A model generated the notes under the pieces. That model was not told the DNA's origin, did not search any database, and saw nothing but the letters and a program-made list of their open reading frames with translations. The translations under genes and the position numbers were made by a program. Of a DNA stretch of 64,000 nt, positions 16,504-27,081 are shown one piece after another. The DNA is from Candidatus Cloacimonadota bacterium (lineage in GTDB: Bacteria; Cloacimonadota; Cloacimonadia; Cloacimonadales; GCA-2742885): assembly GCA_002742885.1 (NCBI GenBank), contig PDOO01000032.1, positions 16,508-80,507 on the forward strand, in the 5' to 3' direction. How positions within the stretch are numbered: position 1 is the first letter of the stretch; every line of letters starts with the position of its first letter.

Positions 16504-16943
16504 TCAGACCGCCAAAAAAAGTTATCGGAGCGACGGTAAATGCCGCCTTGTTGAAATTCAAATATTATTTTTGAGTTTTCGGAAGGTTTGTATTCGATTG
16601 AAAATTCGGGTAAAACTCTGTTTTCGTTGTCGCCGTTTCCTTCAACATGAAAATTTCTGCTCCAAGTTGCCGTTCCGTCATTCACAAAATGCAAATTGAG
16701 ATTCATTTTAAGCTTGGGGTTAAATTTGTATTCTATGCTGTTGGTGTAACGGGATTGATAAAAACTGTTGTTTCTTGAATCGAAAGAACTTGTAAAAGAA
16801 ACGCTTTGACTCATTTTAATTTTATTGGGATTCAGCAAAGTCGGAACTTTGTAAACTTGATGGAACAAGCGTTCAGGTTTGATAGTTTCAGACGATAAAG
16901 AAAAACAAAACATCAATAATGCCGAAATTGCAAGCTTATTCAT
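16500..16943 (-). CDS. Small exported protein of unknown function
   Basis: 147 residues with a signal peptide (~1-18). The remainder alternates hydrophobic and polar residues in beta-strand-like pairs (for example SVSFTSSFDSRNNSFY and KIIFEFQQGG), consistent with a short outer-membrane-type or periplasmic beta protein. AAGGAG precedes the ATG. The 4-nt overlap with pilD suggests coexpression, but the protein shows no pilin-type leader. Confidence 0.6.
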   Translation of the reverse strand: MNKLAISALLMFCFSLSSETIKPERLFHQVYKVPTLLNPNKIKMSQSVSFTSSFDSRNNSFYQSRYTNSIEYKFNPKLKMNLNLHFVNDGTATWSRNFHVEGNGDNENRVLPEFSIEYKPSENSKIIFEFQQGGIYRRSDNFFWRSE

Positions 16944-23605: not shown

Positions 23606-23641
23606 AAAGTCGATTTTCATTTCAGGAAATCGGCTTTTTTT
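23606..23641 (+). terminator. Terminator of the yebC-ruv-rsmB operon
   Basis: Long stem AAAGTCGATTT/AAATCGGCTTT (one G-U pair) followed by T residues. Confidence 0.85.
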
Positions 23642-23738
23642 ATATTTAAATTTCTTTTAGTATGATTTAAATCTTGATATATCAATCTGTTAAATAAATA
23701 AGGCTATATATGAATAAAAAACGTATAAAGGATTAATT

Positions 23739-25697
23739 ATGAGTTTTAAGTTTAACCCTCGAGAAAATTACGAGAAAACCCGAAAAGAAATCGGTTTTGT
23801 TGCGTTGAAAGAAGCTGACAGGGAAACATGGGAGAGAATCGGCTTTATGTCCGGTTTGGAAATTCATCAACAACTTGATACGGATAAAAAACTTTTTTGC
23901 CGTTGTCCCGTCGGTATTTTTCACGATTTTGAAGATTATGATGCGGAAATTATCAGACACATGCGACCTACTCTCAGCGAATTGGGCGAATATGACGGAA
24001 CAGCTTTGATGGAGTTTAAAACCAAAAAAGAGATAACTTATCGTATAAATAACGAAACTGCTTGTACATACGAGATAGATGACACTCCTCCTTTCCCGAT
24101 GAACAGAGAAGCTTTAAAATATGCGGTTGAAATTTCTTTGATGCTGCATCAGTATATTGTCGGCGAAGTTCACATTACCCGGAAACAATATTTGGACGGT
24201 TCCATTCCTGCCGGTTTTCAAAGAACCGCCATTATCGGAGTGGAAGGTTCTTTTCCGATTAAAAATAAAAAAATAAGAATGATACAGATGAGCATTGAGG
24301 AAGATTCCTGCCGTGAAATTTCGGATTATCGGCACAAGAGAATGTACATGACTGATCGTCTGGGAACTCCGCTTATAGAAATGGTTACTTATCCCGATAT
24401 GATAAATCCTTATGAAGCGGCGGAAGCGGCTCAGTATTTGCGTTTTTTGGTTCGCAGTACGGGAAAAGTCCGAACCGGCATCGGAGCATCTCGTCAGGAC
24501 GTAAACGTGTCTTGCAAAGGCGGAACCAGAATAGAAATAAAAGGTGTCGGACATATTGCCCGAATACCGGATTTGACTCACATAGAAGCTTTCAGGCAAT
24601 GGGCATTATTGCATATAAGAGATGAAATTAAAAATCTCGCCAAGGAAAATTGGAAAATAGAATCCAAGGTCATTAATGATGAGTTAATTTCGGAAAATAT
24701 GATTCAAAAGCCTGAAAATTGGCATTATATTTTGGTCAGACTTCCTGATTTCAGAGGCATTTTATCTCACTTTACTCAACCCGGTAAAATATTTGCCGAC
24801 GAAATTTCGGACAGATTGAAAGTTATCTCTTGTTTGGAAAAACCGAATATGCATCATTCCGAAGAATTGGAACCTGTAATAAGCGAAGAAATTTGGGATA
24901 TTCTTGCAAAAGAATTGCCGGGAAGCGAAAATGATGCTTATATACTTTTCCCTGCTCCCGAAGAAGATCGGGAAACCGCTTTGGAAACCGTTGAAGAGCG
25001 ATGTCTTGCGGCTTTTGACGGCGTGCCGGAAGAAACCAGAAAATCTTTTGCCGACGGAACAACCGTTTTTGAAAGAGTTTTGCCGGGAGCCGACAGAATG
25101 TATCCCGACACCGACAGCGCGCCTATTCCCGTTTCGGAAGATTTTATAGAAGATATAAGAAAACAATTGCCGGTTGAGTTGGAAAAACGCATTGCTCAAT
25201 TTGAAGAATGGAAGCTTCCGACCGATACTTTTACCTATCTTTTCAGAAATAATCTGATGAAACTTATCGATGAAATAAGTTCAGATTTGAATATTGATCC
25301 GCGTGAAGTCGGAAAACTTATGGCTCACAGAATAAAATTCAGAGAAAGAAAAGATCGTAAACCTTTTAATTATAAAATTTTGAAAAATCTTTTGGCTTTT
25401 GTTCAAAAAGAAAAGATTGAGTTTGAAATTGTTCCCGAAATGATAAAAGTTTTAATGAACAGCCCGGAAGAAGATTTTTCGTCAGTATTGAAAACAATAA
25501 AATTCAACCGCTTTAAGCAAAATGAAATTACTTCCGAAATATCGGCAATCAGAGATAAACTCGCCTTAAAAAAGGATATTTCAAAAGAAAAAATCGTTTC
25601 CGGCATTATGGGATTTTTACGTCCCCGGGCAATCGGAGATCTTTCTTTGGCGAAATTGAATAAAATTGTAACCGAAAACGTTGAAAGAGGAGAGTAA
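23739..25697 (+). CDS. gatE: Glu-tRNA(Gln) amidotransferase subunit E (archaeal type)
   Basis: A 652-residue GatE, the kinase/transamidase subunit that phosphorylates Glu-tRNA(Gln) and converts it to Gln-tRNA(Gln) with ammonia from GatD. The N-terminal MSGLEIHQQLDTDKKLFCRCP-type signature and the cradle domain with conserved HITRKQYLDGSIPAGFQRT separate it from GatB. The middle region (~280-440) corresponds to the AspRS-like insertion found only in GatE. The C-terminal ~150 residues are the helical/YqeY-like tail that binds the tRNA. GatE is described as an archaeal protein, so its occurrence among typical bacterial genes is unusual. The ATG has AAAGGA upstream. gatD follows after 1 nt. Confidence 0.95.
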   Translation: MSFKFNPRENYEKTRKEIGFVALKEADRETWERIGFMSGLEIHQQLDTDKKLFCRCPVGIFHDFEDYDAEIIRHMRPTLSELGEYDGTALMEFKTKKEITYRINNETACTYEIDDTPPFPMNREALKYAVEISLMLHQYIVGEVHITRKQYLDGSIPAGFQRTAIIGVEGSFPIKNKKIRMIQMSIEEDSCREISDYRHKRMYMTDRLGTPLIEMVTYPDMINPYEAAEAAQYLRFLVRSTGKVRTGIGASRQDVNVSCKGGTRIEIKGVGHIARIPDLTHIEAFRQWALLHIRDEIKNLAKENWKIESKVINDELISENMIQKPENWHYILVRLPDFRGILSHFTQPGKIFADEISDRLKVISCLEKPNMHHSEELEPVISEEIWDILAKELPGSENDAYILFPAPEEDRETALETVEERCLAAFDGVPEETRKSFADGTTVFERVLPGADRMYPDTDSAPIPVSEDFIEDIRKQLPVELEKRIAQFEEWKLPTDTFTYLFRNNLMKLIDEISSDLNIDPREVGKLMAHRIKFRERKDRKPFNYKILKNLLAFVQKEKIEFEIVPEMIKVLMNSPEEDFSSVLKTIKFNRFKQNEITSEISAIRDKLALKKDISKEKIVSGIMGFLRPRAIGDLSLAKLNKIVTENVERGE

Positions 25698-25698
25698 A

Positions 25699-27081
25699 AT
25701 GAGTGAAAATGAACAAGGTTATCGCGGTAAAGCTCTCGAAGTTTTAAGAAAATTCAAGGTCAGAGTTTGGAGTAAAGCAAGTATCCTTTCATCTCGAGGA
25801 AAATTTGAGGGAATTATTCTTCCCCGTTCGGAAAATGATGATGATTTTCATATTGTTTTAAAATTAATAACCGGCTATAATATCGGAGTCGATTGCAACA
25901 CAATTACCGAAATGACGGAGCTGGGTTATCAACGGGCTGAATACAAAATTCCCGAAAAAGAATTTCCTTACAGTCCGGATAAACCCAATGTCAAACTTTT
26001 GGGTACGGGCGGAACCATCGCTTCCAGACTTGATTATCGAACAGGCGCCGTTATTCCGGCGTTTTCTCCCGGAGAACTTTACGGAGCGGTTCCGGAATTG
26101 GCGGATATTTGTAACCTTAACACCGAAAAAGTGTTTGCGGTTTTCAGTGAAAATATGGGTCCTAAACAATATTTGGCATTGGCAAAAGCGATAGGAGAAG
26201 AAATCAAAAACGGTATAGACGGAATAATGATCGGACACGGTACCGATACTTTGCATTATACTGCGGCGGCTCTTACTTTTATGGTTCAAAATTCACCTGT
26301 TCCCATCGTTCTCGTCGGTTCTCAAAGATCGTCCGACAGACCGTCTTCCGATGCGGCGTTAAACTTGATGCATGCCGCTTATGCCGCTGCTCACGGCGAT
26401 ATTGCCGAAACCATGGTTTGCATGTTCGGACCTACTTCCGACGAATACGGTTTGTTGCACAGAGGAGTTCGGGTAAGAAAAATGCATTCTTCTTATCGTT
26501 CTACTTTCAGAACTTTGGGAGATGTTCCTTTGGCTGCGGTTACCCGGAATTCATTGACTCATATTACCAAAAAATACAACAAACGACGCTCGGATCGAGA
26601 AGTAACGATTTTACCGTATTTTGAAGAAAAAGTTTCTCTTCTTTACTATTATCCTAATATGCAACCCGATGTCATAGATTCCTTGGTTGCAAACGGTTAT
26701 AAAGGAATTGTTATTGCCGGAACAGGTTTGGGACACGTAAATAAATCCGTTTACGATGCCGTGGAACGAGCTTCAAAATCCGGAGTTCATATCTATATGA
26801 CGGTGCAAACTCTTTGGGGATATGCTCACATGTTTGTTTACGATACCGGACGAGATCTCATAGCAAAAGGTATCGTGCCGGCTGAAAATATGTTGCCCGA
26901 AACCGCTTACGTAAAACTGGGTTGGGCATTGGGACAAACCGACGATCCCGAAAAAGTACGTAAATTAATGCTTACTCCGGTCAGTTCCGAAATAACTGAC
27001 GGCGAACCTTATAACGGTTATCTGGTTTATCAGGGCGGTATCCCGGAAGTTGAAGAGTTCATAAGAAAAGTACATAAATAA
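25699..27081 (+). CDS. gatD: Glu-tRNA(Gln) amidotransferase subunit D (archaeal type)
   Basis: 460 residues: an N-terminal Tudor-like domain (~15-80, ending GYNIGVD) unique to GatD, then an asparaginase-like glutaminase domain. Catalytic residues are visible as LGTGGTIAS (T106), HGTDTLH (T182, D183) and a Lys in the RKMHSSYRSTF segment. It hydrolyses glutamine and channels ammonia to GatE. A stand-alone asparaginase is excluded by the N-terminal domain and the adjacent gatE. The ATG at 25699 has GAGGAG upstream and is 1 nt from the gatE stop. A hairpin terminator follows. Confidence 0.95.
   Translation: MSENEQGYRGKALEVLRKFKVRVWSKASILSSRGKFEGIILPRSENDDDFHIVLKLITGYNIGVDCNTITEMTELGYQRAEYKIPEKEFPYSPDKPNVKLLGTGGTIASRLDYRTGAVIPAFSPGELYGAVPELADICNLNTEKVFAVFSENMGPKQYLALAKAIGEEIKNGIDGIMIGHGTDTLHYTAAALTFMVQNSPVPIVLVGSQRSSDRPSSDAALNLMHAAYAAAHGDIAETMVCMFGPTSDEYGLLHRGVRVRKMHSSYRSTFRTLGDVPLAAVTRNSLTHITKKYNKRRSDREVTILPYFEEKVSLLYYYPNMQPDVIDSLVANGYKGIVIAGTGLGHVNKSVYDAVERASKSGVHIYMTVQTLWGYAHMFVYDTGRDLIAKGIVPAENMLPETAYVKLGWALGQTDDPEKVRKLMLTPVSSEITDGEPYNGYLVYQGGIPEVEEFIRKVHK

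Follow-up and report, generated by a model that had tools for sequence, protein, structure and literature searches.

How does an enzyme that is described as archaeal come to be encoded in a bacterial chromosome, and what would it do there? The question is raised by a stretch of 64,000 nucleotides (the window) from a Candidatus Cloacimonadota bacterium (GenBank assembly GCA_002742885.1, contig PDOO01000032.1, forward-strand positions 16,508 to 80,507), in which a preliminary description had recognized gatE and gatD, the two genes of the tRNA-dependent amidotransferase GatDE. In passages of two reviews GatDE is stated to occur only in archaea, and in one of them its co-evolution with archaeal tRNA(Gln) is argued to explain why archaea never adopted glutaminyl-tRNA synthetase (GlnRS) (PMC9499178; PMC8007984). 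GatDE is also named as the archaeal enzyme in part of a third paper (PMC7373986), the archaeal structures are mentioned in a section of another (PMC4027206), and a GatDE review appears in the reference list of a fifth (PMC4206432). No paper on bacterial GatDE was recognized from titles and the beginnings of abstracts in the open literature, a search that left subscription journals mostly outside; the NCBI models would already name these proteins GatD and GatE in annotation. The answer that we favor, and hold to be probable, is that GatDE is a complete heterodimer of a bacterial branch, kept by selection, that would provide a laterally mobile and often absent second route to Gln-tRNA(Gln). The two genes are as follows.

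23739..25697, forward strand: gatE, Glu-tRNA(Gln) amidotransferase subunit E, 652 amino acids, a GatB-like kinase/amidase body with an insertion and a C-terminal tail
25699..27081, forward strand: gatD, Glu-tRNA(Gln) amidotransferase subunit D, 460 amino acids from the ATG, the asparaginase-like ammonia donor

The presence of both subunits in a bacterial chromosome was confirmed with curated protein families, in which each product exceeds the NCBI equivalog cut-offs. GatE reaches 479.9 bits with the GatE model NF003107 (cut-off 456, profile positions 5-627 of 630 covered) and 422.9 bits with TIGR00134 (cut-off 319.55), a nearly end-to-end match, while GatD reaches 500.4 bits with the GatD model TIGR02153 (cut-off 324) and 499.6 bits with NF003217 (cut-off 310). 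The Pfam matches are GatB_N (PF02934) at residues 38-471 of GatE and, in GatD, GatD_N (PF18195, 43.1 against a cut-off of 25.7), Asparaginase (PF00710) and Asparaginase_C (PF17763); the GatD N-domain is accompanied by a C-terminal extension typical of the bacterial clade. The closest solved structures for the pair, 2d6f and 1zq1, are each annotated GatE/GatD. A misread GatB in place of GatE, or a misread asparaginase in place of GatD, is ruled out by these curated scores and by a GatB-rooted tree: GatE scores at most 131.3 bits with GatB models, whose cut-offs run from 314.8 to 680 (338 for the best-scoring model), and in the tree the root separates all GatE rows, archaeal and bacterial alike, from the GatB family (support 100/100). 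An AlphaFold model of GatE made from a two-row alignment had a mean pLDDT of 40 and was discarded.

Comparison with known systems leads in the same direction. The window pair shares with archaeal GatDE (Methanothermobacter thermautotrophicus, 2d6f, and Pyrococcus abyssi, 1zq1) its subunits, curated families, near full-length match and catalytic residues, as well as the adjacency of gatD and gatE in most loci. It differs in belonging to a separate bacterial branch, in the C-terminal extension of GatD, which is absent from the P. abyssi chain and from the archaeal-like pair of one draft genome (G129, below; the 2d6f row ended at residue 426), and in its hosts, which mostly encode GlnRS and, where read, bacterial tRNA(Gln). 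The bacterial amidotransferase GatCAB has a homologous kinase/amidase body (PF02934) and would share its overall reaction with GatDE, but GatE falls far under every GatB cut-off, and of the 124 phylum genomes 123, including that of the window, gave no GatB match. Type I L-asparaginases belong to the same superfamily as the catalytic domains of GatD (TIGR00519, whose cut-off GatD also exceeds), but GatD has in addition its N-domain, a gatE partner and a higher score with the GatD models.

Residue conservation and substitution rates bear on whether the enzyme is intact. In GatD, T106, T182, D183 and K261 (numbered from the ATG at 25699; T112, T188, D189 and K267 when numbered from an upstream TTG), which we take to be catalytic, are present in 57 of 57 aligned rows, and the first three had been named correctly beforehand. 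In GatE, all 55 rows have H43, E187 and D254, and 54 have E214, which is replaced by Gln in G061; H43, E187 and E214, the counterparts of M. thermautotrophicus H15, E157 and E184 and again presumably catalytic, are all present in the window protein. Purifying selection on both genes is strong, with ratios of nonsynonymous to synonymous substitution (dN/dS) of 0.05-0.10 for GatE in five close pairs of genomes and 0.03-0.07 for GatD in four; the fifth pair, G046/G047, had reached saturation for GatD and was close to it for GatE. GatD is the better conserved subunit: against 21 other bacterial loci the window GatD shows 71-79% identity and the window GatE 52-58%, and against the two aligned archaeal pairs the values are 45-48% and 31-33%. 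Judged from its sequence, the window pair is an intact two-gene GatDE in a bacterium.

Any implication that GatDE is peculiar to this genome did not hold. The survey covered 386 genomes, relatives picked by a search tool rather than at random, of which 124 (with the window's own genome, G000) are from the phylum and 262 from outside it. A GatE match at E <= 0.001 was obtained in 49 of the 124, 41 of them above cut-off, and removal of a fragment (G054, E = 1.9e-4) and a GatB cross-match (G123) leaves 47 GatE-positive genomes, a patchy distribution. GatD above cut-off occurs in 70 of the 386, 45 in the phylum and 25 outside (22 families). GatE accompanies it in all 25 of the latter, above cut-off in 24 and split over two contigs in G153; this constant association, together with the retained kinase residues, argues for a two-subunit amidotransferase under selection.

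The preliminary description had also proposed that the genes were acquired laterally, and trees of both proteins were built, as it had suggested. They cover the phylum incompletely, with 30 GatD and 31 GatE rows (UBA6244 included), and contain few archaeal sequences, namely three GatE (the Natrinema one partial and long-branched) and two GatD; partial rows were taken out (for GatE G153, for GatD G025 and G059), and G228, G360 and G381 are missing from the GatE tree. With five GatB as root, the GatE tree sets archaea plus G129 (100/95) against the other 51 bacterial rows (92/97), and the archaeal GatE, of which three were available, together with G129 form the sister group of the bacterial branch rather than enclosing it. 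In the GatD tree, which carries long-branch warnings, 54 bacterial rows stand apart from the two archaeal rows and G129 (100/100). All bacterial rows except G129 are thus separate from the available archaeal ones, and descent of the bacterial genes from archaea, as one form of lateral acquisition, finds no support in the three archaeal GatE available. The draft genome G129, which is labelled bacterial, carries its archaeal-like pair in the order gatD-gatE (L131:4293-7561), outside the bacterial branch; its source may be an independent acquisition of archaeal-like genes, or else contamination.

Lateral acquisition does find support between bacteria. G253, from another phylum, is as close to six members of the phylum in GatD (75-78%) and GatE (55-62%) as these six are among themselves (73-87% and 55-74%), whereas its asparaginyl-tRNA synthetase (AsnRS) is 50-52% identical to theirs, against 66-75% within the six. 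The corresponding values for G300 are 71-76% for GatD, 52-57% for GatE and 45-48% for AsnRS. In both trees the two genomes are placed within the branch of the phylum or beside it, as is UBA6244, which has the NCBI label Bacteroidales. These relationships support the transfer of gatDE between bacterial phyla in two cases, G253 and G300.

Had GatDE replaced the bacterial pathway, or does it coexist with it? Both had been suggested, and for the phylum coexistence is what was found. With presence thresholds of E <= 1e-45 for GlnRS, 1e-50 for GatB and 1e-60 for AsnRS, GlnRS is present in 43 of the 47 GatE-positive genomes and 67 of the 77 GatE-negative ones (p = 0.56), and GatB is present in one genome of the 124 (G123, not counted as GatE-positive) and in none of the 47. 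GatDE has not taken the place of the usual GlnRS route in the phylum; the window's own genome, which shows neither GlnRS nor glutamyl-tRNA synthetase (GluRS), is taken up below. In one genome (G106) GluRS is followed by GlnRS in a single open frame of at least 1039 amino acids (L046:1-3120), possibly a natural fusion.

Outside the phylum, GatB is missing from 14 of the 25 GatDE-positive genomes and from 35 of the 237 GatDE-negative ones (p = 1e-5), and GlnRS is present in 17 of the 25 and 96 of the 237 (p = 0.01). GatDE is thus commoner where GatB is missing, which fits the same chemistry for both. The 25 divide into 12 with GlnRS only, 5 with GlnRS and GatB, 6 with GatB only and 2 with neither, a state found in 8 of the 237 GatDE-negative genomes. 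The two with neither at the thresholds used (G153 and G271) are 98-100% complete and are candidates, outside the phylum, for a GatDE that acts alone. A branch of GatDE that is found in many bacterial families, mostly with GlnRS, shows the two systems to be compatible within one cell, and natural hosts with GlnRS only, with both, or perhaps with GatDE only offer a test ground for the replacement of one route by another.

AsnRS was sought in 78 genomes: 41 of the 47 GatE-positive members of the phylum (without G005, G009, G048, G087, G095 and G112), 12 other phylum members and the 25 outside. It was matched in 35 of the 41 (the window's own genome included), 12 of the 12 and 20 of the 25, and 66 of these 67 matches are above cut-off. 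Because the AsnRS model also matches archaeal control genomes, the protein from the window's genome was checked further; it scores above cut-off with two AsnRS models and below both cut-offs for Asp-tRNA(Asn) ligase.

The model favored for the bacterial enzyme follows the established family mechanism. GatD would take ammonia from glutamine or asparagine, and GatE would phosphorylate the glutamate on Glu-tRNA(Gln) and then amidate it to give Gln-tRNA(Gln). The two genes would form a self-sufficient and dispensable module, which in most bacterial hosts would serve as a second route beside GlnRS and, outside the phylum, sometimes beside GatCAB. In such a cell GatDE would use, or clean up, Glu-tRNA(Gln) produced by GluRS. 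What bacterial GatDE catalyzes, on which tRNA and to what physiological end are in this model predictions.

Several points weigh against this proposal. For the transfers, AsnRS is a single yardstick, and GlnRS, compared in other pairs of genomes, shows only a small gap (55-67% identity across phyla, 60-72% within). The associations with GatB and GlnRS ignore kinship, the 25 GatDE-positive genomes spanning 22 families. GatDE would have no obvious substrate in a cell that combines GlnRS with a discriminating GluRS. We take Arg358 of GluRS to be a mark of discrimination; it is kept in 9 of 10 GatE-positive and 9 of 10 GatE-negative phylum genomes. GluRS was matched in 23 of the 25 outside GatDE-positive genomes, and among the eight of the 25 that lack a GlnRS match Arg358 is kept in seven, the eighth (G261) not being aligned. 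A residue that is kept even where GlnRS is missing fails to discriminate, so the marker did not pass its own control.

A further point on the same side comes from the tRNAs themselves. Archaeal GatDE is reported, in part of one review, to read the A1:U72 pair and the D-loop of tRNA(Gln) (PMC9499178). The tRNA(Gln) genes were read in 23 phylum genomes, namely the window's own and 22 others that all belong to family f2 and include GatE-positive and GatE-negative members (the TTG tRNA of G004 is absent from the ARAGORN calls). The pair is U1-A72, unlike the archaeal A1:U72, in both tRNA(Gln) of the window's genome and in 42 of the 43 from the other 22, the exception being the CTG tRNA of G004, with A1-U72. 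This leaves two options, a bacterial GatDE that recognizes tRNA(Gln) in another way or one that acts on another substrate. The absence of A1:U72 is a feature of the host, and was not counted against the membership of the enzyme in GatDE. A special second tRNA(Gln) in GatE-positive genomes was considered and rejected, GatE-positive and GatE-negative genomes that were read sharing a Ser-Gln-Gln cluster.

The window's own genome raises a different prospect, that in this lineage GatDE replaced GlnRS and is the sole route to Gln-tRNA(Gln); we consider this unlikely. The assembly (53 contigs, 93.6% complete) was searched for GatB, GlnRS and GluRS, much as the preliminary description had advised, and yielded no GatB and no PF00749 protein at E <= 0.001, hence neither GlnRS nor GluRS (GatA and GatC were not searched). 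Furthermore, its two identical tRNA(Gln)(TTG) genes (L312:2130-2327, contig C48) have the discriminator A73, whereas G73 is found in 43 of 43 tRNA(Gln) of the 22 other phylum genomes and is given, in part of one paper, as an identity base for bacterial GlnRS (PMC9976931). The second TTG copy occupies the position of the CTG tRNA(Gln) in the cluster of relatives; a CTG gene elsewhere in the genome was not sought. If GatDE were indeed the sole route, the phylum would have inherited GlnRS and the window lineage would have lost it, with G73 changed to A73 and the CTG isoacceptor gone from its usual place: a domain-crossing swap of the entry of one amino acid into the code, beside relatives that carry both systems.

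The missing synthetases have, however, another reading. GluRS is essential and yet it too is missing, so that a gap in the assembly is likely, and since at least 33 phylum genomes have gltX and glnS no more than 4 kb apart on a single contig, one gap could remove both. Calls of absence are unreliable in any case, because in 10 of the 77 GatE-negative genomes neither GlnRS (at E <= 1e-45) nor GatB was detected. Of 16 stretches read around gltX or glnS, 8 have holB (named from PF13177) after one of these two genes. The 688 kb of the window's genome that were read yielded no holB, the lone weak match looking like DnaX, so that synteny did not settle whether GlnRS sits in a gap. The A73 change is single and may be incidental, and all of the 22 genomes with which it was compared are from family f2.

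A second alternative is that the pair has acquired a new substrate or role, for example on another aminoacyl-tRNA or as a regulated asparaginase or glutaminase based on GatD. Such a role would account for the coexistence with GlnRS and mostly with AsnRS, which leaves no route to an amide aminoacyl-tRNA apparently missing, and it is consistent with the better conservation of GatD and with the conserved C-terminal extension of the bacterial GatD clade. Four phylum assemblies that are GatD-positive and GatE-negative (G052, G058, G086 and G104) also favor it, but two of them are only 64% and 72% complete. GatE is present in every outside genome with GatD, even where it lies on another contig, and its kinase residues are kept in the aligned rows. 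We regard a new role as unlikely, slightly more so than a sole route. As separate observations, the 97% complete draft G058 carries GatD at L155:3898-5280 and has no GatE match, and the window's genome encodes on contig C51 a separate asparaginase-like protein that falls under the GatD cut-off.

That the window pair is an artefact of archaeal contamination or of a chimeric contig is very improbable. In favor of it are the archaeal-like pair in D-E order, found in G129 alone, and the G+C peak over gatD; against it, the window proteins are far closer to those of the 21 bacterial loci than to archaeal ones, the neighbors are ordinary bacterial genes, and G181 has the pair within a single contig of 5.04 Mb.

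In all 22 loci of the first set, which was chosen by GatE and includes UBA6244, gatE and gatD lie close together on the same strand; an open frame of the PDDEXK_3 family (PF13366; L066:8011-8382) separates them in G023. Outside the phylum they are same-strand neighbors in 17 of 25 genomes, convergent in 2 (G200 and G261) and on separate contigs in 6 (G157, G227, G228, G302, G360 and G381; L135, L141, L142, L149, L151 and L154). All six of these split genomes match GatB, G381 weakly (7e-60). An apparent GatE-GatD fusion in L133 consists of two long overlapping open frames. Among 47 loci no tRNA or other gene was frequently linked to gatDE, the next commonest neighbor family being an ABC transporter at 7 loci, 6 of them from the phylum set. 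A search of plasmids and phages gave one near full-length GatE match, on a Natrinema plasmid, the others being partial and, where annotated, gatB; viral contigs gave no GatE match. For GatD there was no plasmid match at E <= 1e-40, and viral contigs gave nine distant asparaginase-like matches (phages were not searched for GatD).

In the window itself, the close spacing and the ribosome-binding sites described earlier were borne out, as were the ordinary bacterial genes on either side. One base separates the stop codon of gatE at 25697 from the ATG of gatD at 25699, and the gatD open reading frame can be extended to a TTG at 25681. The pair is interior to the 80.5-kb contig. In 1-kb bins from 18 to 34 kb (n = 16) the G+C fraction ranges from 0.315 to 0.443; the highest bin, 26-27 kb, lies inside gatD and the second highest is 0.425, so the peak is mild and has no abrupt edge. 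Three smaller features were read by eye, the last without a dedicated scan.

23727..23732, forward strand: Shine-Dalgarno-like stretch of gatE
25687..25692, forward strand: Shine-Dalgarno-like stretch of gatD, within the 3' end of gatE
23607..23641, forward strand: terminator-like hairpin with T run, 3' of the preceding gene

The terminator-like hairpin ahead of gatE suggests that gatE and gatD may have a transcript of their own.

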